Assembly (NCBI RefSeq): GCF_030698125.1 | Contig: NZ_JAUYNV010000019.1 | Location: 1 to 64,000, forward strand | Reading direction: 5' to 3' | DNA length: 64,000 nt | Source: Methyloversatilis sp. | GTDB taxonomy: Bacteria > Pseudomonadota > Gammaproteobacteria > Burkholderiales > Rhodocyclaceae | Part shown: piece by piece, positions 8,837 to 30,436 of the stretch | Position numbering within the stretch: position 1 is the stretch's first letter | Layout: every line of letters begins with the position of its first letter | Made by a program: the position numbers and the translations under genes | The notes under the pieces: model-generated | Told to the model about the DNA's origin: nothing | The model's database searches: none | Seen by the model: the letters and a program-made list of their open reading frames with translations, nothing else

Positions 8837-8853
8837 CTGGCACTGTCGTTGCT
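8837..8853 (+). promoter_or_regulatory. Sigma-54 (RpoN) promoter for PEP-CTERM gene
   Basis: CTGGCACTGTCGTTGCT matches the -24/-12 consensus YTGGCACGRNNNTTGCW at 16 of 17 positions (only the G after GGCAC differs). Transcription would begin near 8865, leaving a leader of ~135 bases before the PEP-CTERM gene. RpoN control of PEP-CTERM genes is known in floc-forming Zoogloea, which supports the call. Confidence 0.8.
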
Positions 8854-8921: not shown

Positions 8922-9001
8922 GCCTCGTTCGGGCGCTACCGGCAATCCCCGGCGGCACGCCCATTTCCCGTTCCATAACGGATATCTAGAGAGGAATGAA
9001 G

Positions 9002-9925
9002 ATGCACAGCGCAGCCACCGACTCCTTCCGCAGACTGACTGCCGCGCCCTTGTGCGCCCTGGCGCTCGCCGCCGTGCCACAGACTGCGTTCGCGAACTTC
9101 TTCGACCTCAGGACCGGCGTCGATTTCACCACCTGGACCTTGTCGGGCGATGCGACTGCATTCAACAACGATCTTGGCGATGCAACGGACAGCTATGCGC
9201 GGCTGAATCGCGGCATCGGCGGCGGATCGGTCGGGGGAGCGTTCGCGCCCGGGCCGGTAATTGTTGATTTCAATGCGCCGTTCGAGGTTTCGTTCCGGTT
9301 CTTTGTTTCGCATTCCGGAGGCGTCGATGGCGAGGGCAACCCGGTGGGGGTGCAAGGCGACGGCCTGACCTTCTTCATGACCGGCAACACACCCGCGCTC
9401 GGCCAGGGCGGCTCCGACCTGGGTTATGGCGGTAGCGGCATGAACGGCTACGCGTTTGCCGTCGACACGTTCAATTTCGACAACGAACCGCAAGCGGTCA
9501 GCGTGCAGATTCTGGGCGAGGGCAGCAGCACCCCCCTGGCATTCACGGAAACCGGCCTGCCCGACATTCAGCCGGCTGACTACTACCAGTGGTTCGGTAC
9601 GGTGGGCTTCACGCCGTCGGGTGATGACGACGAAACCGGCACGCTGTCCTTCGAAATCCTGCAGGCCTTCACCAATCAGAGCTATCGCGTCGAGTGGTCC
9701 TCTGCCGACTGGAGCTCCGTCGCGACCGACGTGTATGACGAAGAGTCGAACTTCCTCGGCCGCGGCATCCACTTTGGCTTTACGGCCGGCAACGGTCTGG
9801 CCGACGACGTGCATTTCGTCGGCTCGCTCACGGTCGCCCCGCCCATCCCCGAGCCCTCGACCTGGGCCATGCTGCTGGCCGGCCTCGGCCTGGCCGGATT
9901 CGCTGCCCGCGCCCGCCGGAACTGA
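9002..9925 (+). CDS. PEP-CTERM protein with L-type lectin-like domain
   Basis: A 307-residue exported protein. A signal peptide (LTAAPLCALALAAVPQTAFA) is followed by a beta-sandwich region with the signatures of legume-lectin-like domains: GDGLTFFM, LGYGGSG and a YAFAVDTFNFD metal-site-like segment. The C-terminus has the exosortase sorting signal: PEPSTWA, a hydrophobic helix and the basic tail RARRN. It should be handed to exosortase after export and displayed on the cell surface or in the matrix, perhaps binding glycans. The ATG at 9002 is 8 bases after AGAGGA; the ATG at 8996 is too close to it. It lies behind a sigma-54 promoter. Confidence 0.9.
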   Translation: MHSAATDSFRRLTAAPLCALALAAVPQTAFANFFDLRTGVDFTTWTLSGDATAFNNDLGDATDSYARLNRGIGGGSVGGAFAPGPVIVDFNAPFEVSFRFFVSHSGGVDGEGNPVGVQGDGLTFFMTGNTPALGQGGSDLGYGGSGMNGYAFAVDTFNFDNEPQAVSVQILGEGSSTPLAFTETGLPDIQPADYYQWFGTVGFTPSGDDDETGTLSFEILQAFTNQSYRVEWSSADWSSVATDVYDEESNFLGRGIHFGFTAGNGLADDVHFVGSLTVAPPIPEPSTWAMLLAGLGLAGFAARARRN

Positions 9926-19749: not shown

Positions 19750-19809
19750 CTTGAATGACGAATGCAGTCACGCGCTCATCGAGGAGGCGGCCGCGAGGCC
19801 GCAAGCGAC

Positions 19810-20484
19810 ATGCACATACTGCTTGCAGAAGACGATCCGGTCATTTCCGACGCCGTGGTACGCGCGCTCAAGCGCGCCGGCTACGCGGTGGACAGCGTGG
19901 CCAATGGCAGTGAAGCCGACGCCGTGCTGCATGGTCAGGGCTTCGATCTCGCCATCATCGACCTCGGGCTGCCGCGCCTGTCCGGCATCGAGGTGATCAA
20001 ACGCATGCGGGCCCGCAAATGCACCGTACCCATCCTGATCCTCACGGCGCAGGACGGCATCGATGACCGCGTGCGCGGACTCGACGCCGGTGCCGACGAC
20101 TACATGTGCAAGCCGTTCGCACTGCCCGAACTCGAAGCGCGCGTGCGCGCGCTGACCCGGCGCGGCACCGGCATGCCGACGCGCATCGAGGTCGGCCCGC
20201 TGGCCTACGATCAGGCCGACCATGTCGCCAGCGTCAACGGACAGGCCATCGAGCTGTCGGCGCGCGAAACGGCGCTGCTCGAAGTGCTGCTGCTGCGCGC
20301 CGGCCGTCTGGTGAACAAGGAGCAACTGGTCGATCATCTGTGCGGCTGGGGCGAGGAGGTCAGCAACAACGCCATCGAGGTGTATGTACATCGGCTGCGC
20401 AAGAAGATCGAGCACAGCGGCCTGCGCATCGTGACGCTGCGCGGCCTCGGCTACTGCCTGGAACGACCGGATGCCGTCGCGTGA
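19810..20484 (+). CDS. OmpR-family response regulator
   Basis: A 224-residue response regulator (QseB/PmrA/TctD type). The receiver domain has the acidic pocket in LLAEDD, the phospho-acceptor Asp in LAIIDLGLP near residue 51, Thr in LILTAQD and Lys in YMCKPFAL. The C-terminal winged helix (IELSARETALLEVLLL to VYVHRLRKKIE, then LRGLGYCLE) binds DNA. The ATG at 19810 gives the usual start MHILLAEDD; an earlier in-frame ATG at 19762 would add an unrelated tail. It overlaps the kinase gene by 14 bases. Confidence 0.93.
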   Translation: MHILLAEDDPVISDAVVRALKRAGYAVDSVANGSEADAVLHGQGFDLAIIDLGLPRLSGIEVIKRMRARKCTVPILILTAQDGIDDRVRGLDAGADDYMCKPFALPELEARVRALTRRGTGMPTRIEVGPLAYDQADHVASVNGQAIELSARETALLEVLLLRAGRLVNKEQLVDHLCGWGEEVSNNAIEVYVHRLRKKIEHSGLRIVTLRGLGYCLERPDAVA

Positions 20485-22713: not shown

Positions 22714-23577
22714 TCAACGAGCGACGGCGTTCAACGCGGGTGCCAATGCCACGCTCAAGCGGCCGACGATGTCAGGCAAAGGTTCTGGCGGAAGTTCGTT
22801 CTTCTTGAGAAATGCCAGCCACAGGGCCTGCCGCGAAGCGTCGTGCGCAAACTCGTCCGTCAGACCGGCTGGCAGCGCTTCAGGAATCGCCATGCCCCGT
22901 CTAGCGAACGTGGCCTTGATCGCCCGGGCCAGCAGATCGGTGTCCAGAGTTTCTCGTTCCAACAGCACCGACAGATCGAAGTAGTCCTTCAAGCGGCTGT
23001 TGGTCATGCCCAGCAAAGCGATGGCGTGGAGCTTTTCCGCGATGACGGTGTACGTTGGGTAGGCCCGCAGTCGCGGTGCGGGCATTTCCTCCAGCAGTAC
23101 CGGATAGACCGAATCAACAGGCGCCGGGGTGACTGCGTCGCCGAAGCCGACGTCGATCCGGGTTTTGCAGCGTGCTCTGGCCAGATCGCCCGCAATGATC
23201 ACGCGAACGCCGCCGTAGCCAGCTTCCTTGCGGATCTCCTCGACCGTGACGGAGGCAGGGTCGAACACGATGCCGTCGTCGACCGCTACAGCTGCGATGT
23301 CCCGGAATACCTGGGACACTGACGCAAGATCGCTGGCACCAGACCCCCACAGGTCGGCATCGCGTGTTGCCCGGTGTGGCATGTCGTACCAGAGCGTGAA
23401 CAGCAGCGCACCTTTGAGCAGAAAGCGATCCGCGTGCGGCGACTGGGTCAGGCGATAGAGAATGCGCTCCAGGGCAAAGCGCACCAGCACCTGATTGAAA
23501 TCGACACCTTGTGCCCTGGCGACGTTGAGCAGGCGCGCACGGACGGATGCCGAGACATTCGGGGTGGACGCGCTCAT
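22714..23577 (-). CDS. abiEii: AbiEii-type nucleotidyltransferase toxin
   Basis: A 287-residue protein of the AbiEii/AbiGii toxin family, a nucleotidyltransferase-fold toxin (MNT/DUF1814 group) of type IV toxin-antitoxin and phage-abortive systems. The family motif is seen as LLKGALLFTLWY followed by RATRDADLWG near residue 65; a later Lys/Asp segment is YTVIAEKLHAI with SRLKDYFDL. Such toxins may add nucleotides to tRNA or bind GTP. Its start overlaps the stop of the AbiEi gene by 4 bases. The 273 bases from the tRNA to this gene contain no other gene. Confidence 0.92.
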   Translation of the reverse strand: MSASTPNVSASVRARLLNVARAQGVDFNQVLVRFALERILYRLTQSPHADRFLLKGALLFTLWYDMPHRATRDADLWGSGASDLASVSQVFRDIAAVAVDDGIVFDPASVTVEEIRKEAGYGGVRVIIAGDLARARCKTRIDVGFGDAVTPAPVDSVYPVLLEEMPAPRLRAYPTYTVIAEKLHAIALLGMTNSRLKDYFDLSVLLERETLDTDLLARAIKATFARRGMAIPEALPAGLTDEFAHDASRQALWLAFLKKNELPPEPLPDIVGRLSVALAPALNAVAR

Positions 23578-24179
23578 CCGACACTTTCCAGGTAGGGGCG
23601 CATCACGTTGGCCACCCGGCATATCTTGGCGAAACGCCAGATGTCGTCGACGGAGGCCTTGCTTCGCGCACGGGCGTCTTTCAGCGCCTCCAGCGCCACA
23701 TCCAGACCGATTTTGTTGCGGTGCTTGAAGCAGTCCGCCACGGTCTTGGCCACGCTGTACACGCGGAGCCTGACACTGTCGCGTTCGACCTCCTCAATCC
23801 CTGCCGAGTAGGCATCGCCCGTGAATTGCACCATCTTGACGGGTGGGTAGTCGATACGGGGCGGGTGGCTGCCCCGAGGCATGGCGATCCAGATCTGACG
23901 CGGCAGCTGCGTGGTCAGCTCATGAAACTGCAGCGCCGTGAGCAGGCAGAACACCGCTTGAGGTACCTTGGTGGCGATGGTGCCAAGGCTCTCGAATTCC
24001 GAAACCTGTGCATCCGGCAGACGGTACAGGCCACGCCCCACCTTCTCCAGCAGACCCGCGGCGGTCAGGCGCGTCAGAACGACCCGAGGCGCACTGATGG
24101 CGTCCAGATCGCTGGCGCGCAGTAGCCCCTTCTGGCTGGCCAGATCGAGGACGCGCTGAGTGTGGGTACTGGAGTGCAT
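23574..24179 (-). CDS. abiEi: AbiEi-type antitoxin/transcriptional repressor
   Basis: A 201-residue AbiEi-family antitoxin. The N-terminal winged helix (residues ~8-60: VLDLASQKGLLRASDLDA, VLTRLTAAGLLEKVGRGLYRLP) binds the operon promoter; the C-terminal domain (TALQFHELTTQLPRQIWIAMPRG onward) is needed for antitoxicity. In type IV systems toxin and antitoxin do not bind each other. The ATG at 24179 gives the expected domain start; an open frame runs further upstream but overlaps the promoter. It is cotranscribed with the toxin gene. Confidence 0.92.
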   Translation of the reverse strand: MHSSTHTQRVLDLASQKGLLRASDLDAISAPRVVLTRLTAAGLLEKVGRGLYRLPDAQVSEFESLGTIATKVPQAVFCLLTALQFHELTTQLPRQIWIAMPRGSHPPRIDYPPVKMVQFTGDAYSAGIEEVERDSVRLRVYSVAKTVADCFKHRNKIGLDVALEALKDARARSKASVDDIWRFAKICRVANVMRPYLESVG

Positions 24180-24191
24180 GGGTGAAGTATG

Positions 24192-24235: not shown

Positions 24236-24467
24236 CATTTTCCCATGTCTCCGGGCCTCGCCGCCGGGCCGGGCCGGGCCGTGGTGTGCAGGGCTTCGTG
24301 CGGCGAGCCTGCGTCGCGTCGACGAAGCAGGCCGTGGGCATGTCGTCGGGATTGGCGCCGCTCGAAGTCGGCCCCTGACTTGTTCGCTGCATATCGTCTC
24401 GTTATCATCGACCGCGTGCAGACAGCAAACGCCCCGCGCCCTCGCTCAAGGGACAGGCGAGACGAAC

Positions 24468-27400
24468 ATGCTGCAATTGCAGTGCCTTGGAGACCTGACG
24501 GTGGTCGTGGACGGTGCAGCCGTTGCCTCGCTGACCAATTCGAAGGCGGCCGCATTGTGGTTGTACGTGGCGCTCAGCGGGAGCGCGTGCTCGCGCGCCG
24601 TGCTGGCCCGGATGTTCTGGGGTGAACTCGACGAGGCCGCTTCTCGCGCAAATCTTCGCTTCGTTCTGACCCGTTTGCGGCAGGAACTCCCCGCTCATGT
24701 TCAGGCCGACCGCACCACCGTCAGCGTGCCGGCCGATGCGCGCTGGATGCTCGATCTGTCCGCGCTCGATACGCCGTTTTCCGCTTCCGCAGACAGCGTT
24801 GCCGCGCTGCTTGCACTGCGCATCGAGGATTTTCTCGCCGGATTGCGCTTGCGCAAGGCCCCGGAATTCGAGGACTGGCTCTCCCTGCAGCGCGAAACGC
24901 TGGGCAGGAAATACCTTGCCCGTCTTGACGAGGCAGCCGATGCGCTGCGTGCCGCCGGGGATCAACGGGGCGAGGCAGAAATACTGCGGCGTGCGCTGTC
25001 CGTTGCGCCCTGGTCCGAACAGCATCATCAGGCGCTGATCCGGAGCTACATCGGCATGGGGCAGCGCACTTCGGCGATTGCCCAGTACGAAGCATGCAGA
25101 AAGGCCCTGCAGCGCGAGCTCGATGCTGCACCGGACGCCGCGACCGACGCACTTTACGAATTTGCGCTGCAAACAGGCAGCGCAGCCGGGCCGGCACCGG
25201 TGGCGGGAACGTCGGTCGCCAGCGCGTCCGGCGCACAGCCGTGGCCAGTGCGCAGGGTGACGCTGGACGAAACCCTTCCATGGGTCGGGCGTGGCGAAGA
25301 GCAGGCGCGCATCGTGTCCCTGCTGTCCAGCGCCGATGCCCGCGTGGTTACGCTGGTGGGGCCGGGCGGCATCGGCAAGACACATCTTGCACTGGCCGTG
25401 GGTGCGGCGCTTTCCGGGCAGTTTCAGGATGGCGCCTGCTTCGTGGACCTGTCCGATCTGGCGCCGCAGACCGGTGCCGAGTGCGCGGCGCTGGTCGCGC
25501 ACCGGGTGGCGGCTGCGCTGGGCATCGCCTTGCCAGCGGGGCGCGAGCGCGAATCGTTGCTCGAAGTGCTCGCACCAGGCCGGCAGTTGCTGATTCTCGA
25601 CAACTTCGAGCAGGTGGCCGATGCACGCGATCTGGTGGCGATGCTTGCCCGCCATGCCACCGGCCTGCGCATTCTGGTCACCAGCCGCCATCAGCTCGGG
25701 CTGGCCACCGAATGGGTCGTCAGGCTTTGCGGCTTGCCGTTCCCGGACACCGATCAATGGACACCGGAGCTGCGCAGCGCGCCCGCGCCCAGCCTGTTCT
25801 GCGAACTCGCGCGTCGCCAGCAGCCCGGCTTCGATGCGGACGCAGACGGCGTTCACGTCCTGCGACTCTGCCGCGCAGTCGAGGGGTATCCGCTCGGTCT
25901 GGTGCTGGCGGCCCGCTGGCTCGCAACGCTGTCGTGCCGAGACGTGGCCGAACGACTTTGTGCGGGCGCTCACGTGCTCGGCGAGGCGCCGGCCACGTTG
26001 CCGGAAAATCCCCGCCACAGCGACATGGCTTCGGTGTTCGATCATTCGTGGCGTCTGCTGGAACCGGCGGAGCAGCAGGTACTCAGCGCCCTGTGCATGT
26101 GCCGGGGCGGCTTTACGCCTGATTCCGCCCTGGCTTTCTGTCGTGGCACGCTCGCGATTCTCGCGGGCCTCACCGCCAAGTCGCTGCTGCAGCCCGCTCG
26201 GCATGGGCGGCTCGACGTACATCCGCTGCTGCGTGATTTCGGCGAGCGCAAATTGCTGCAATCCGGGGCGAACGGCGCAGTGCGTGATGCCCATGCGCGG
26301 CATTTTCTGGCGCTTCTGCAGGCTGGCCATCAGCGTTTCGAGTCCCAGGCGGACACCGTCGCGCTGGACGAGCTGCGCGCGGAACAAGGCAATCTGCGAG
26401 TGGTGTTCGACCATCTCGTGAATTCCGGGGCCATTGACGCGCTTGCGCGCCTGCTGCCGGGACTGTGTGCCCTGTACCGGATGCAGGGCTGGTTCGACGA
26501 ACTTGCCGGTCTGCTGCAGCGGGCCCTCGCCATGCAGGGATTGCCATCGGCTTGCGCTTCGAGCTGGCAACTCTGGCTCAGCGATGTTTTCTTCCAGCTC
26601 GGCCGTCACGCGGAGTGCCGCGCCGCGGCGCTCGAATGCCTGGCCCGGCAGGGTGACATCGACATGGAGCAGGGCTCGCCGAACCGGCACATGCTGCGCG
26701 AGTTCGCGCGTACGCTGAACGGTCGCTGGTGGCGGTACGGGAACCTCGATGCCGACGCCGAAGTGCTCGTTTCCCGTGCCCACAACAGGCTTGCACAGGT
26801 CTATTTCTTCGAAGGCGACCGGCCGCGATTCGTCGCAAGCTCCCTGCGTTCGATCAACATCGTGCGCGCCGGCAGCCTCCCCGAGCATCTTGCCTCCGGT
26901 GCGCTCGTGCTCAGCTACACACCGTTCAAGTCAGAGGCCGCGCGCTATGCGGCCAGGGCGGAGCGCTGCCTGGATCAAGCCGGGATGGCCGAGCAGGCAT
27001 GGACCCACGAGCAGCTCTGTCTCTACCGGCTTGCCGGTGGCGACCTGGACGCCGCCCGGGGGCACGGACAGACCGGTGCCGACATCTTCTGGCGGCTGCG
27101 TCAGTACAGGAACTGGGGCGAATGCACGGCACTGGTCTCCTATGCCCACGAGTTCGCAGGCCGGCTCGAAACGGCGCGCACGCATATGCTCACGCTGTGC
27201 GAGGAAGGACGGCGTGTCCGCGAGGCCGCGTCTGAACTCTGGGGGCTGCTCGCCTTGTGCACGATGGACCTTCGCATCGCGGCCTCCACGCCGCATGTTG
27301 ACCTGCACACCATCGACCGGCTGGCCGCCAGGGTAGTGGATCCGAATACCCAGTTGCTCCGCCACGGCGTGCTTGCCTGGTGGTTTGCGCGAACCGGGCG

Positions 27401-27776
27401 CAAGGCAGAGGCGCTGTCATCGATCGACACCTTTTGCCGCGTGTTCGACCGGGCAACGATGACGTCCATCTATGCCCTGAACGGCTTCACCGGCTGTGCC
27501 ATGGCGCTGGTGGTGGTGGCGCATCATGAGACCGGCGATCGACGAGCCCTGGTCGCGGCCGGCGAAGGCCTGATCGGGCGCGCGCTGCGTTTTGCGCGCC
27601 TGCTGCCCGCAGCACGGTCGCGCGTGAGGTATCTGCAGGCGCTGTGGTGGATGGCGAGCGGTCGCCGCACACGCGGCGAACGTCGGCTGGCGCGGGTGCT
27701 GAACGATCTGCCGGCCGGCATCGATCGTGCCGGATTCTCGGCCGGACTGCATTTGCCCCGTGAAGGACGTAAATAA
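24468..27776 (+). CDS. SARP/BTAD-type transcriptional regulator with NB-ARC ATPase and TPR-like region
   Basis: A 1102-residue multidomain regulator like AfsR/large SARPs. Residues 1-90 form an OmpR-like winged helix (LQLQCLGDLTVVVDG, NLRFVLTRLRQEL); 95-245 the bacterial transcriptional activator domain (FEDWLSLQRETL, AEILRRALSVAPWSEQHHQALI); ~265-560 a STAND/NB-ARC ATPase with Walker A GPGGIGKTHLA, Walker B QLLILDNFE and a TSRHQLGL sensor; the rest is helical repeats that probably sense a ligand. Such proteins are typical of actinomycete antibiotic clusters and less common in Betaproteobacteria. It lies 135 bases before a PEP-CTERM gene on the same strand, which it may activate. Confidence 0.9.
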   Translation: MLQLQCLGDLTVVVDGAAVASLTNSKAAALWLYVALSGSACSRAVLARMFWGELDEAASRANLRFVLTRLRQELPAHVQADRTTVSVPADARWMLDLSALDTPFSASADSVAALLALRIEDFLAGLRLRKAPEFEDWLSLQRETLGRKYLARLDEAADALRAAGDQRGEAEILRRALSVAPWSEQHHQALIRSYIGMGQRTSAIAQYEACRKALQRELDAAPDAATDALYEFALQTGSAAGPAPVAGTSVASASGAQPWPVRRVTLDETLPWVGRGEEQARIVSLLSSADARVVTLVGPGGIGKTHLALAVGAALSGQFQDGACFVDLSDLAPQTGAECAALVAHRVAAALGIALPAGRERESLLEVLAPGRQLLILDNFEQVADARDLVAMLARHATGLRILVTSRHQLGLATEWVVRLCGLPFPDTDQWTPELRSAPAPSLFCELARRQQPGFDADADGVHVLRLCRAVEGYPLGLVLAARWLATLSCRDVAERLCAGAHVLGEAPATLPENPRHSDMASVFDHSWRLLEPAEQQVLSALCMCRGGFTPDSALAFCRGTLAILAGLTAKSLLQPARHGRLDVHPLLRDFGERKLLQSGANGAVRDAHARHFLALLQAGHQRFESQADTVALDELRAEQGNLRVVFDHLVNSGAIDALARLLPGLCALYRMQGWFDELAGLLQRALAMQGLPSACASSWQLWLSDVFFQLGRHAECRAAALECLARQGDIDMEQGSPNRHMLREFARTLNGRWWRYGNLDADAEVLVSRAHNRLAQVYFFEGDRPRFVASSLRSINIVRAGSLPEHLASGALVLSYTPFKSEAARYAARAERCLDQAGMAEQAWTHEQLCLYRLAGGDLDAARGHGQTGADIFWRLRQYRNWGECTALVSYAHEFAGRLETARTHMLTLCEEGRRVREAASELWGLLALCTMDLRIAASTPHVDLHTIDRLAARVVDPNTQLLRHGVLAWWFARTGRKAEALSSIDTFCRVFDRATMTSIYALNGFTGCAMALVVVAHHETGDRRALVAAGEGLIGRALRFARLLPAARSRVRYLQALWWMASGRRTRGERRLARVLNDLPAGIDRAGFSAGLHLPREGRK

Positions 27777-27814
27777 AATCAATGAGATAAAAAAATAACG
27801 GCGCGATCTTCGCA

Positions 27815-27833
27815 AACTAACGCGCAACTAACG
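27815..27833 (+). promoter_or_regulatory. Candidate SARP box: AACTAACG direct repeat at 11-base spacing
   Basis: AACTAACG occurs at 27815-27822 and 27826-27833. SARP activators bind direct heptamers spaced 11 bases apart, the last ~8 bases before the -10 box; here 8 bases separate the second copy from TTCATT (27842-27847). It lies between the SARP-type gene and the PEP-CTERM gene. Confidence 0.5.
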
Positions 27834-27911
27834 ACCTGTTCTTCATTGTTGGATCCCGCACCGCGCCGTCGTCTGCTCGGTCGATGTGCCCACCGGACTC
27901 TGGAGACCACA

Positions 27912-29378
27912 ATGAAGATCAATCCTTTATGCAGTCGCAGTCGCGCCCTTGCGACGCTGATGGCCGGACTGCTTGCAGGCGCCGCGGCATCCGACGCGCG
28001 CGCGCTTGAACTGCTCACACAGAATGTGTCGTTCAACACTGCCGGCCAGAGCATCTGGAGTGAAGGCGATGCGTTCGATTTCAGCTACGCCCAGTTCTTC
28101 GGTGCCACATCGCCGCGCAAGACCAGCGTGTACGACCCGAGGGCGGTGTCGGGCAAGGTGGAAATCAAGGTGCTGCCCGACTTCGACTGGTACGTGAATC
28201 CGTACTTTTCCCTCACCACGGATCTGACGGCGGGCATCGAAGTCGGCGCCAACATTCATGGCGGCTCCATCGATGCGAACCTCGACTACACCATCGCCAT
28301 TTCCGCGCCCGGGCCTATCGTCCGGGGTGAGTATTTCCAGCTCGAGGCGGTCGCCAGCACCCGCGGCAGCAGCGCCTTTGCGACCCGCCCGGCCAACGCA
28401 TCGGCCTGGGTGGATGGCATTCTGGACGTGTATGCCCAGAGCTTCATCCGGTTTGAGACGGCACGTGATCTCGGCGATCACGACTATCGCCTGACCACCA
28501 CGCTGGCCAATGTCGATGTGCGCAAGGAAATCGTGTCCTTCAATCGCGATGACAGCGGCCGACTGCGCATCATCGGAGCCGGAGATGTGGGCGGCGTCGG
28601 CAGTGTTTACACGCTGCCTGCTGCGGCCCTGAACGGCTCCACGCGTGTGACCGCCGGCGACTGGCGGGTGTCGGCGAACGGTGCGCTCGGCACCGATACG
28701 CTGACCGGTGCAGGCCAGACAACGCTGCTCACCGCAGATATCGACGTGGACCAGTTTCTGCTGAGCGGATCGGACGTACTGGGTACGCGGCTGCGCAGGG
28801 ATTTCGGCGTCATCGACATCGATTTCGGTTACGAAATCGTGGATCTGGACGCTGCACTGACCGTCGGGCTGCAGCAGAGCTTCGAGGTGTCCGGCGACGT
28901 GCTCATGCAGCTCAGCTTCAGTGAGGCTGTGCGGCTGGAGAATATCGGCGAAATGACGCAATGGATCGGCCGGATCGACGAACTTCCGGCGATCGCCGTG
29001 CTGGGTGACGATGTGACGGTGGATGCCCGGTTCCTCGTCGATGCAACGCTGTCCAACCGGACCGGCATCACGTTCGGCGCGTCCCTCGACCTGACCTTGC
29101 TGGAGCTGTTCGCCCGCGCGAGCTATGACGTGTCCTATTTCGGATCCGATCGTCGCGGGCAGTTCCTCAATGCGCGGTATGGCCCCGTGTATCAGTGGTC
29201 GTCCGCCTCGAACGCACTGGAAATCCCCGTGTTCGACAACGAATTCGCGCTGGGCGGTTTCCAGTCGGTCGACGGCGGCAGTTTCGTGCTGAGTGCGGTG
29301 CCAGAGCCCCGCACAGCAGGACTGCTCTGCGCGGGTCTGCTCGTGCTGGGGCTGGCGGTGCGCAGACAACGGATTTGA
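27912..29378 (+). CDS. PEP-CTERM protein downstream of the SARP regulator
   Basis: A 488-residue exported protein, with a signal peptide ending near AAASDARA. The mature region is predicted all-beta, with many alternating strands (LTTDLTAGIEVGANIHGG, VSYFGSDRRGQF), and matches no family I know. The C-terminal sorting signal is PEPRTAG, then a hydrophobic helix (LLCAGLLVLGLAV) and the tail RRQRI. It should be processed by the exosortase of the XrtA system and anchored or released at the surface. No sigma-54 box is seen upstream; the SARP-like repeat is the only candidate control element. Confidence 0.88.
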   Translation: MKINPLCSRSRALATLMAGLLAGAAASDARALELLTQNVSFNTAGQSIWSEGDAFDFSYAQFFGATSPRKTSVYDPRAVSGKVEIKVLPDFDWYVNPYFSLTTDLTAGIEVGANIHGGSIDANLDYTIAISAPGPIVRGEYFQLEAVASTRGSSAFATRPANASAWVDGILDVYAQSFIRFETARDLGDHDYRLTTTLANVDVRKEIVSFNRDDSGRLRIIGAGDVGGVGSVYTLPAAALNGSTRVTAGDWRVSANGALGTDTLTGAGQTTLLTADIDVDQFLLSGSDVLGTRLRRDFGVIDIDFGYEIVDLDAALTVGLQQSFEVSGDVLMQLSFSEAVRLENIGEMTQWIGRIDELPAIAVLGDDVTVDARFLVDATLSNRTGITFGASLDLTLLELFARASYDVSYFGSDRRGQFLNARYGPVYQWSSASNALEIPVFDNEFALGGFQSVDGGSFVLSAVPEPRTAGLLCAGLLVLGLAVRRQRI

Positions 29379-29512: not shown

Positions 29513-30436
29513 TCAGGGTGTGTTGCGCCGGCGCTGCAGGGTGCGCGTGCCCACGAAGGCCAGGCCAAGCAGCATGAGCAGCGCCGTGTGCGGCTCGGGA
29601 ATGGCGGGTGGCTGCACGTAGTCGTAGCCGCCCACGCCGTCGATGTACACATCCACGCCAGGGTCGGCTGAAGCGAAATAGAGGTACGCGGAATTGCCGT
29701 AGCTCGACTGCGACGTGCGACCGTTCGCCACCTCGTCCGCCTGCCAGGCGGCAGTGCTGACACCGGTCGAGGCGCGCAGGCTGTAGTCGACATCCAGCGT
29801 TTCGCCGATGTAGGCGATGAACGAGCCACCCATGCCCGCAATGCTTCTCTGCGCGCTGTTCGAGGATTCGGTATCGCCGAACAGGACTGTCTCGATGCCG
29901 TCGCGTCTGGCGACCACGTTCAGATACAGCGTGCCCTCGCCGATGCCGGTGATGTTGAATACGGTGCTCAGCGTGACGGCCGTTCCGTTGGCGAGTGTCG
30001 AGGACCTGATCCTGATACGGTCTTCGACGGCCGCATAACCGTAGCCGCTGATGCCCGGCACGAAGGCGCCACCCGTGCCGGTGACTTCGACCGCGACAGA
30101 GGCGTGCAGCGAACCCGGCAGCGCGAGCGCGAAGGCATCGCCGGTCAGCCGGAAGTTCGGAGAGCCGCTGGTGTTGCCCGGTGCATACACTTCGCGCAGC
30201 AGCTGGCTGCCGGTCGATACGCCATTCTGGTCGGTGACCAGCAGCGGCTGGTCGAGCAAGCGGTTGCACTCGCGCGTGTCGTTGTTGGTGGTGCAGGACG
30301 TGTTGCCGGGACCGATGACGTTCGGCTCGTATTTCGTCTCGACGTGCGCATACACGGAGGCGGTTGCGGCGTGGACGGTCGGGCTGGCAAACGCGAAAAG
30401 GAGCGCAACGGATGAGCTTGCAATGGCGATTCGCAT
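29513..30436 (-). CDS. PEP-CTERM protein
   Basis: A 307-residue exported protein with a signal peptide (MRIAIASSSVALLFAFASPTVHA), a beta-rich mature domain of unknown family with two Cys (NTSCTTNNDTRECNR) that could form a disulfide, and the sorting signal PEPHTAL, a hydrophobic helix (LMLLGLAFVG) and the basic tail RTLQRRRNTP. It converges with the previous PEP-CTERM gene; the 134 bases between them hold no clear terminator. GAGGAG precedes the ATG. I see no sigma-54 promoter upstream. Confidence 0.87.
   Translation of the reverse strand: MRIAIASSSVALLFAFASPTVHAATASVYAHVETKYEPNVIGPGNTSCTTNNDTRECNRLLDQPLLVTDQNGVSTGSQLLREVYAPGNTSGSPNFRLTGDAFALALPGSLHASVAVEVTGTGGAFVPGISGYGYAAVEDRIRIRSSTLANGTAVTLSTVFNITGIGEGTLYLNVVARRDGIETVLFGDTESSNSAQRSIAGMGGSFIAYIGETLDVDYSLRASTGVSTAAWQADEVANGRTSQSSYGNSAYLYFASADPGVDVYIDGVGGYDYVQPPAIPEPHTALLMLLGLAFVGTRTLQRRRNTP

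Follow-up and report, generated by a model that had tools for sequence, protein, structure and literature searches.

This report concerns a 64,000-nucleotide stretch of Methyloversatilis sp. DNA (NCBI RefSeq assembly GCF_030698125.1, contig NZ_JAUYNV010000019.1, positions 1 to 64,000 of the forward strand; hereafter the window), in which the gene for a 1102-aa SARP-STAND regulator (24468-27776, + strand) precedes the gene for a 488-aa PEP-CTERM protein (27912-29378, + strand) and a direct repeat with an 11-bp period lies in the gap between them (27777-27911). Judging from the sequence, the two genes are likely to be an AfsR-type activator and its paired target. This reading was adopted because in domain order and folds the regulator resembles AfsR and MalT combined; because the pair was linked in four of four genomes, in one of which (Ga0077532) both copies of the repeat had changed with their register kept; because boxes downstream of such regulators go with the SARP type and with a YAnnnT hexamer fixed at +10; and because the layout matches that of the afsS promoter, with neither a sigma-70 -35 element nor a -24/-12 site. 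The AfsR architecture, the gene pairing, the conserved repeat, the co-ordinated change of its copies and, in members with a downstream box, the fixed spacing from box to -10 were all observed.

The open reading frame (ORF) of the regulator runs from an ATG at 24468 to a stop that ends at 27776, and the preliminary description, which had placed a large SARP/BTAD-STAND regulator directly before a PEP-CTERM gene, was right about both ORFs. In Pfam searches BTAD (E-value 9.5e-11, 42.7 bits, cut-off 22.1) and NB-ARC (E-value 1.2e-6, 28.4 bits, cut-off 23.5) were found above their cut-offs. Pfam alone did not call the winged helix-turn-helix (wHTH) of the regulator (Trans_reg_C, E-value 0.12), and its TPR matches were all under the cut-off, the TPR region being assigned by fold. 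A single-sequence search with the N-terminal 247 aa returned EmbR at an E-value of 0.32 only. A profile built from relatives of the regulator matched AfsR (8k60_I) over positions 9-829 of 965 with an E-value of 5e-59, and the wHTH profile matched both EmbR and AfsR. An AlphaFold2 model (predicted local distance difference test, pLDDT, 81) was then compared with known structures. Its residues 1-239 aligned with 8k60_I (Z 15.9, root-mean-square deviation (rmsd) 3.9, 230 residues aligned) and with 8hvr_I, both of which are AfsR on DNA with RNA polymerase. Residues 264-694 aligned with 8bob_C, a chain of a maltose-system entry that we take to be MalT (Z 25.2, rmsd 3.2, 355 aligned), residues 259-997 with the STAND protein 6mfv (Z 25.7) and residues 689-1102 with domain III of MalT, 1hz4 (Z 20.9, rmsd 5.2, 330 aligned); the ATPase part scored similarly against chains of Apaf-1, NLR and 6mfv as against 8bob_C.

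From these data, the protein was divided into a SARP domain (OmpR-type wHTH plus BTAD, aa 1-239; 24468-25184, + strand) with its recognition helix at about aa 56-73, a NOD/STAND ATPase (about aa 268-694; 25269-26549, + strand) in which a Walker A motif, GPGGIGKT, could be read, and a TPR sensor that is a putative ligand or partner site (aa 689-1102; 26532-27773, + strand). Profile and fold comparisons support that the architecture is that of AfsR. By its sequence features, namely a wHTH followed by BTAD, NOD/NB-ARC plus TPR behind them, and an 11-bp operator geometry, the protein would be classed as a large SARP, and its modelled MalT-like NOD and TPR sensor folds would also place it with the MalT-type STAND proteins. 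The likeness to MalT, as modelled, covers the TPR fold (1hz4) and, by 8bob_C, the ATPase fold over aa 264-1102. The DNA-binding domain of MalT is of LuxR type and C-terminal, whereas that part of the Methyloversatilis regulator is the N-terminal SARP domain.

The predicted operator (27815-27833, + strand) consists of two 8-bp direct repeats, AACTAACG, at 27815-27822 and 27826-27833, and the box reads AACTAACG-CGC-AACTAACG, in agreement with the earlier claim of a repeat at exactly 11 bases. These were the only two copies of AACTAACG in the window, and at least two copies anywhere were found in 9 of 100 shuffles of the whole window. When the 135-bp gap was shuffled with its dinucleotides preserved, a perfect repeat of at least 8 bases appeared at offset 11 in 30 of 20,000 trials and at any offset from 9 to 24 in 515 of 20,000. 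Given these frequencies, the repeat by itself is notable, not decisive, and it is conservation that decides.

Within the genus, the full-length regulator and the PEP-CTERM gene were found in the same 3 of 13 genomes, with identities between sister genomes of 92% for the regulator and 98% for its partner, and the exact box was present in the same three genomes. Sites with two mismatches in two further genomes of the genus were at chance level, as the reversed control gave more of them over the 13 genomes. One further genome among 399 from the order (G673, the metagenome-assembled genome Ga0077532) encoded a regulator with more than 60% identity, and the PEP-CTERM gene was found in 1 of 12 genomes of its family. 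The best other regulator matches among 369 genomes of the class were 28-35% identical (matches with an E-value of 1e-20 or better). In all four genomes with a regulator above 60% identity the partner was adjacent, and all four orthologous gaps carried the box at 11 bp, one of the regulators being split by a prophage. The orthologues of the PEP-CTERM protein were 98, 98 and 81-83% identical. The two checks that had been proposed earlier, alignment of the orthologous gaps and conservation of the gene pair, were thus both carried out, and each came out positive in 4/4.

As the three Methyloversatilis gaps are nearly identical over their full length, each of them adds little. The Ga0077532 gap reads AGCTAACG-GGC-AGCTAACG, with the register kept at 11 bp and the same base changed in both copies, in a gap that is otherwise diverged apart from the ribosome site and a block in the leader (27871-27890). 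When this genome was compared with the window (blastn, E-value 1e-5) over flanks of about 14 kb to the left and 10 kb to the right, only 24464-25720 and 25730-29347 matched, so that the DNA similarity does not reach beyond the gene pair and the gap. In the sister genomes, similarity extends from about 24300 to well beyond the gene pair. The PEP-CTERM protein also had two distant homologues (36% identity in G489, 27% in G529), neither of which had such a regulator beside it; G529 gave no regulator match, and G489 gave two weak ones on other contigs.

Large regulators of this type are known above all for controlling antibiotics in Streptomyces. The best known parallel is AfsR-afsS of Streptomyces coelicolor, with which the Methyloversatilis pair shares a regulator of SARP, NOD and TPR parts, an adjoining target (PMC10972967 for afsS) and a pair of 11-bp repeats where the -35 element would be. 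At afsS, a 22-bp box of two 11-bp repeats extends from -40 to -19 ahead of a -10 element CACTGT, with AfsR contacting each repeat over its first 8 bp (PMC10936776). The Methyloversatilis box likewise repeats 8 of its 11 bases, and the predicted -10 element, CATTGT (27844-27849, + strand), which starts 10 nt after the box, is weak, as CACTGT is. If the first base of CATTGT is taken as -12, transcription would start near 27856 and the box would occupy about -41 to -20, one base from its position at afsS. No sigma-70 site with a -35 element was found in 27650-28000. The preliminary description had compared the gap with the geometry of Streptomyces SARP activators, a likeness that held up and that recurs beside distant family members, and had proposed a -10 hexamer 8 bases after the box. 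A -10 element does seem to lie nearby, but the hexamer at the proposed place, TTCATT, agrees with TATAAT in 3 of 6 bases; that proposal was probably off by two bases, since comparison with the other boxes points to CATTGT.

The neighbourhoods of other STAND regulators were examined for similar boxes. In a first set, 12 other loci of the order that matched the regulator, outside the window and G673, were read regardless of repeats; 6 of 13 regulators had an 11-bp repeat of at least 7 bases within 500 nt downstream, with AACG in all six. After 26 further stretches had been added, a systematic count was made over all loci. It comprised 73 distinct STAND regulators, four of which were dropped (no stop, or less than 150 nt downstream), leaving 69, that is, 38 of SARP type, two with the domain at the C-terminus, and 31 without a SARP domain. 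Locus L160 was dropped for want of usable downstream sequence. Repeats of at least 7 bases within 200 nt downstream occurred at offset 11 in 12/38 SARP-type regulators, against 0-4/38 at other offsets from 7 to 26; the non-SARP STAND regulators gave 3/31 at offset 11, none with AACG and one a run of N. The pattern AACG-N7-AACG was found within 300 nt downstream of the stop in 11/38 SARP-type regulators and 0/31 non-SARP ones, and within 330 nt upstream in 3/38 and 1/31, respectively, while other AACG spacings from 5 to 33 reached at most 3/38. Without the four members of the window regulator's own family, the downstream count was 7/34, against 0 or 1/34 at other spacings from 5 to 40, these 34 regulators belonging to the same order or class as that of the window. 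The seven box-bearing regulators outside the family represent about five lineages (the one at L119 is 53% identical to those at L117 and L120). Immediately before AACG stand two bases that differ from regulator to regulator (CT, GG, GA, CA or GC), and at the recognition-helix residue aligned to T88 of AfsR a downstream box accompanied Lys in 5 of 6 cases and Gln in 0 of 14, for which shared ancestry may be the cause.

This association bears on the idea that the box belongs to another regulator of 11-bp repeats, such as a response regulator of PhoB/OmpR type, with the SARP gene a mere neighbour. OmpR-type domains do bind similar repeats, a response-regulator-like ORF with a matched receiver part lies in the window (19762-20484), and at afsS of Streptomyces PhoP and AfsR compete for one box (PMC10972967). 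However, the downstream boxes track the SARP domain, and the similarity to Ga0077532 is limited to the two genes and the gap, so a foreign regulator is an improbable owner of the box.

The YAnnnT hexamer was seen by eye and then counted over offsets 0-40, both offset and hexamer being chosen after looking. In 11 of 12 box pairs it began 10 nt after the second AACG, and at the other offsets from 0 to 40 it occurred just once, at +21 (first pair of the L124 triple). With the two sister genomes set aside, the count at +10 was 9/10 pairs, the best offset in 5,000 shuffles giving 4/10; in the 34-gene set it was 7/8 pairs and 7/7 genes (binomial 8e-13 for a fixed offset). The loci, all taken from around STAND regulators or the PEP-CTERM partner and 1.25 Mb in total, were scanned for AACG-N7-AACG-N10-YAnnnT, which gave 12 distinct strings, ten of which had already been counted. 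One of the two new ones precedes the gene for an exported-looking protein, some 3 kb away from the regulator of L125, and the other that for a patatin-domain protein, some 6 kb from the regulator of L127. Control spacings of 8-10 and 12-14 gave 0-2 matches each, counted over a somewhat smaller group of loci.

A box at a fixed distance from a weak -10 that has no -35 matches the geometry of activation by AfsR, and all 11 downstream boxes are oriented away from the regulator stop, towards the next gene. Both facts argue against a different use of the box, in which the SARP protein represses the PEP-CTERM gene through it, or read-through dominates and the box only modulates. Such a role would suit the overlap of the box with the -35 position and the lack of any intrinsic terminator found on the + strand between the genes, yet we regard it as more doubtful still than a site for a PhoB/OmpR-type regulator.

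The partner protein carries a PEP-CTERM motif at aa 462-485 that scored 17.9 bits, above the NCBIfam TIGR02595 cut-off of 16 and below the Pfam cut-off of 20.7, and its start looked by eye like a signal peptide; its predicted structure was too poor to use (pLDDT 49). Two TIGR02602 exosortase matches were over the cut-off in the genome, one of them 2.8 kb past the end of the window, and PrsR was over its own. We infer that the protein is sorted by an exosortase, and it is a probable surface protein. PEP-CTERM genes have been linked to a PrsK-PrsR/sigma-54 regulon (Haft 2006, PMC1569441; pepA of Aquincola, PMC9850573), with which the present system shares a PEP-CTERM target in a genome with exosortases and PrsR. 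Membership of the target in this usual regulon, with the repeat incidental, would fit the PrsR match and another PEP-CTERM gene of the window (8996-9925), which has an exact TGGCACTGTCGTTGC at 8838. However, no -24/-12 site with up to two mismatches to TGGCACN5TTGC was found on the + strand of 27777-27911, and the promoter layout there is of SARP type instead; this explanation is the least probable of those considered. PEP-CTERM genes without the sigma-54 motif were already mentioned by Haft 2006 (PMC1569441).

The mechanism proposed for the pair as activator and target is as follows. The MalT-like C-terminal ATPase and TPR sensor would restrain the N-terminal SARP domain, and the binding of ATP, probably together with a ligand, would release it, much as full-length AfsR is inhibited by its NOD and TPR parts and freed by ATP (PMC10936776). 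Once freed, two SARP domains would occupy the neighbouring 11-bp repeats (27815-27836), where a -35 element would otherwise lie, and would bring sigma-70 RNA polymerase to the weak -10 element, by which the PEP-CTERM gene at 27912 would be switched on. The regulator is thus most likely an ATP/ligand-gated activator of its neighbour. That it binds the box and activates the gene can be proposed with good confidence, and gating by a specific ligand seems somewhat favoured.

Several observations weigh against this reading. The AfsR contacts Q48, W74, P79, T88, R94 and K95 were not all found in the regulator, nor was the box CGTT(T/C)ATCGNN in the gap: when residues were mapped by hand through the profile alignment, W51 and R71 corresponded to W74 and R94, and also R69 to R92 and R64 to R87, but the residues at the remaining contacts, K26, E56, F65 and Q72, differed. 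The sequence presumably recognised, with its AACG core, also differs from the CGTT(T/C)ATCG of AfsR (PMC10972967). Because contact residues and box sequence differ, the regulator was named AfsR-like and not AfsR. There are only four orthologous pairs, three of them from one genus with regulators 92% identical, and the fourth is from a metagenome-assembled genome with a prophage-split regulator. As no intrinsic + strand terminator was found between the genes, read-through from the regulator gene is possible. In addition, 27 of the 34 other SARP-type regulators have no downstream AACG box, and the usable SARP-type regulators added later (L158, L159, L161, L162, L163, L169 and L171) have one in 1/7 (L161). 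The upstream boxes at L121, L122 and L123, which point away from the SARP gene and have TAAC in three copies, lack YAnnnT at +10; the L116 box is a variant with a CACG core and the hexamer at +9; and L158 has an 11-bp repeat without AACG.

By its sequence features the system is of the same kind as AfsR-afsS, with a different phylum, operator sequence and cargo; its host is betaproteobacterial, and its repeat is AACTAACG against CGTT(T/C)ATCG. SARPs were called exclusive to actinobacteria by a 2024 review (PMC10972967), and nonetheless GSU1771 of Geobacter sulfurreducens, a SARP-family protein outside Actinobacteria that controls biofilm genes, has been studied (PMC10599522). GSU1771 differs from the Methyloversatilis regulator in carrying a response receiver domain (PMC10599522), and work on it was all that turned up for PEP-CTERM together with SARP in the open-access PMC literature. 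Judged by sequence, Betaproteobacteria too appear to have the AfsR mode of promoter recognition, in this case next to the gene for a probable surface protein, and putative docking sites of like layout lie beside several distantly related SARP regulators. If true, the box-plus--10 rule would allow the targets of orphan STAND sensors to be predicted from sequence, and PEP-CTERM expression would gain a second route besides RpoN. We lean slightly towards a Betaproteobacterial SARP-STAND family of self-contained switches with a readable code (AACG at 11 bp, 10 nt, YAnnnT) and an adjacent gene that is often exported, of which the Methyloversatilis pair would be a two-gene PEP-CTERM cassette version.

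The genes that follow the boxes are mixed. By a crude pattern test, the first genes in the window, L124, L116 and L125 have a signal-peptide-like start, and at L118 and L161 a gene with such a start comes after a small ORF. These two small ORFs, directly after the box and before exported-looking proteins, are similar-looking and have about 65-70 codons. The first gene after the L127 box encodes an HD-domain protein, and those after the L117 and L120 boxes had no Pfam match. PEP-CTERM genes were rejected as general neighbours of such regulators: with a crude, simple pattern applied to 43 loci (L044-L053, L066 and L070-L101; L116-L127 and L158-L183 lay outside the scan), tails were found only at the sister loci L070 and L071 and at L051, about 1.9 kb from its regulator. 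Partial regulator matches were also present in 11 plasmid records, with 28-35% identity among the 10 listed.

As for other features of the gap, a possible third, degenerate copy of the repeat, AAATAACG (27793-27800, + strand), lies 22 bp upstream; it is not conserved, being AAATAACA in G012 and without a match in Ga0077532. The conserved leader segment (27871-27890, + strand; four-way alignment) reads GTCTGCTCGGTC-A-GTGCCC, was kept in 4/4 gaps; it does not code for protein, and a hairpin there is not supported. The idea that the 5' leader folds into a hairpin which masks the ribosome site was rejected, as five stretches were no more stably folded than shuffled sequences (z 0.24 to 1.14). A conserved upstream start of the PEP-CTERM protein was also considered and rejected; although Ga0077532 likewise has an open frame there, a one-base gap in the leader alignment means that the protein sequence is not kept. 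Within 330 nt upstream of the regulator, no autoregulatory box (AACG pair or 7-base repeat at 11 bp) was found; in Ga0077532, similarity begins 4 bases before the regulator ATG. The TAACTGA repeats of Beggiatoaceae were set aside as a parallel, no SARP link or 11-bp period appearing in the part of the source considered (PMC4679880).

Two further PEP-CTERM genes lie in the window. The exact sigma-54 -24/-12 match of 8996-9925 (+ strand) is at 8838-8852, 143 bp upstream, a promoter of the usual PEP-CTERM type that contrasts with that of the target gene; the only other exact match in the window is inside a chaperonin-like ORF. The third gene (29513-30436, - strand) is convergent with the target, and no -24/-12 match with up to two mismatches was found in 1 kb on its upstream side.

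A Mu-like prophage of some 41 kb (L066-L068; G673:C62, about 275000-315830) interrupts the Ga0077532 regulator near aa 418, with a 5-6-bp target duplication as we read it; both halves of the gene are otherwise open, with 70% and 66% identity. Eight of the prophage ORFs were scanned, giving a transposase (phrog_310), a transposition protein (phrog_296), a terminase, a portal, a tape measure and a tail fibre, one ORF of unknown function and one without a match. In the window, an AbiEi/AbiEii-type toxin-antitoxin pair (22714-24182, - strand) stands directly upstream of the regulator, in what was taken as a variable junction because similarity to the sister genomes starts only at about 24300, apart from a 42-base stretch.

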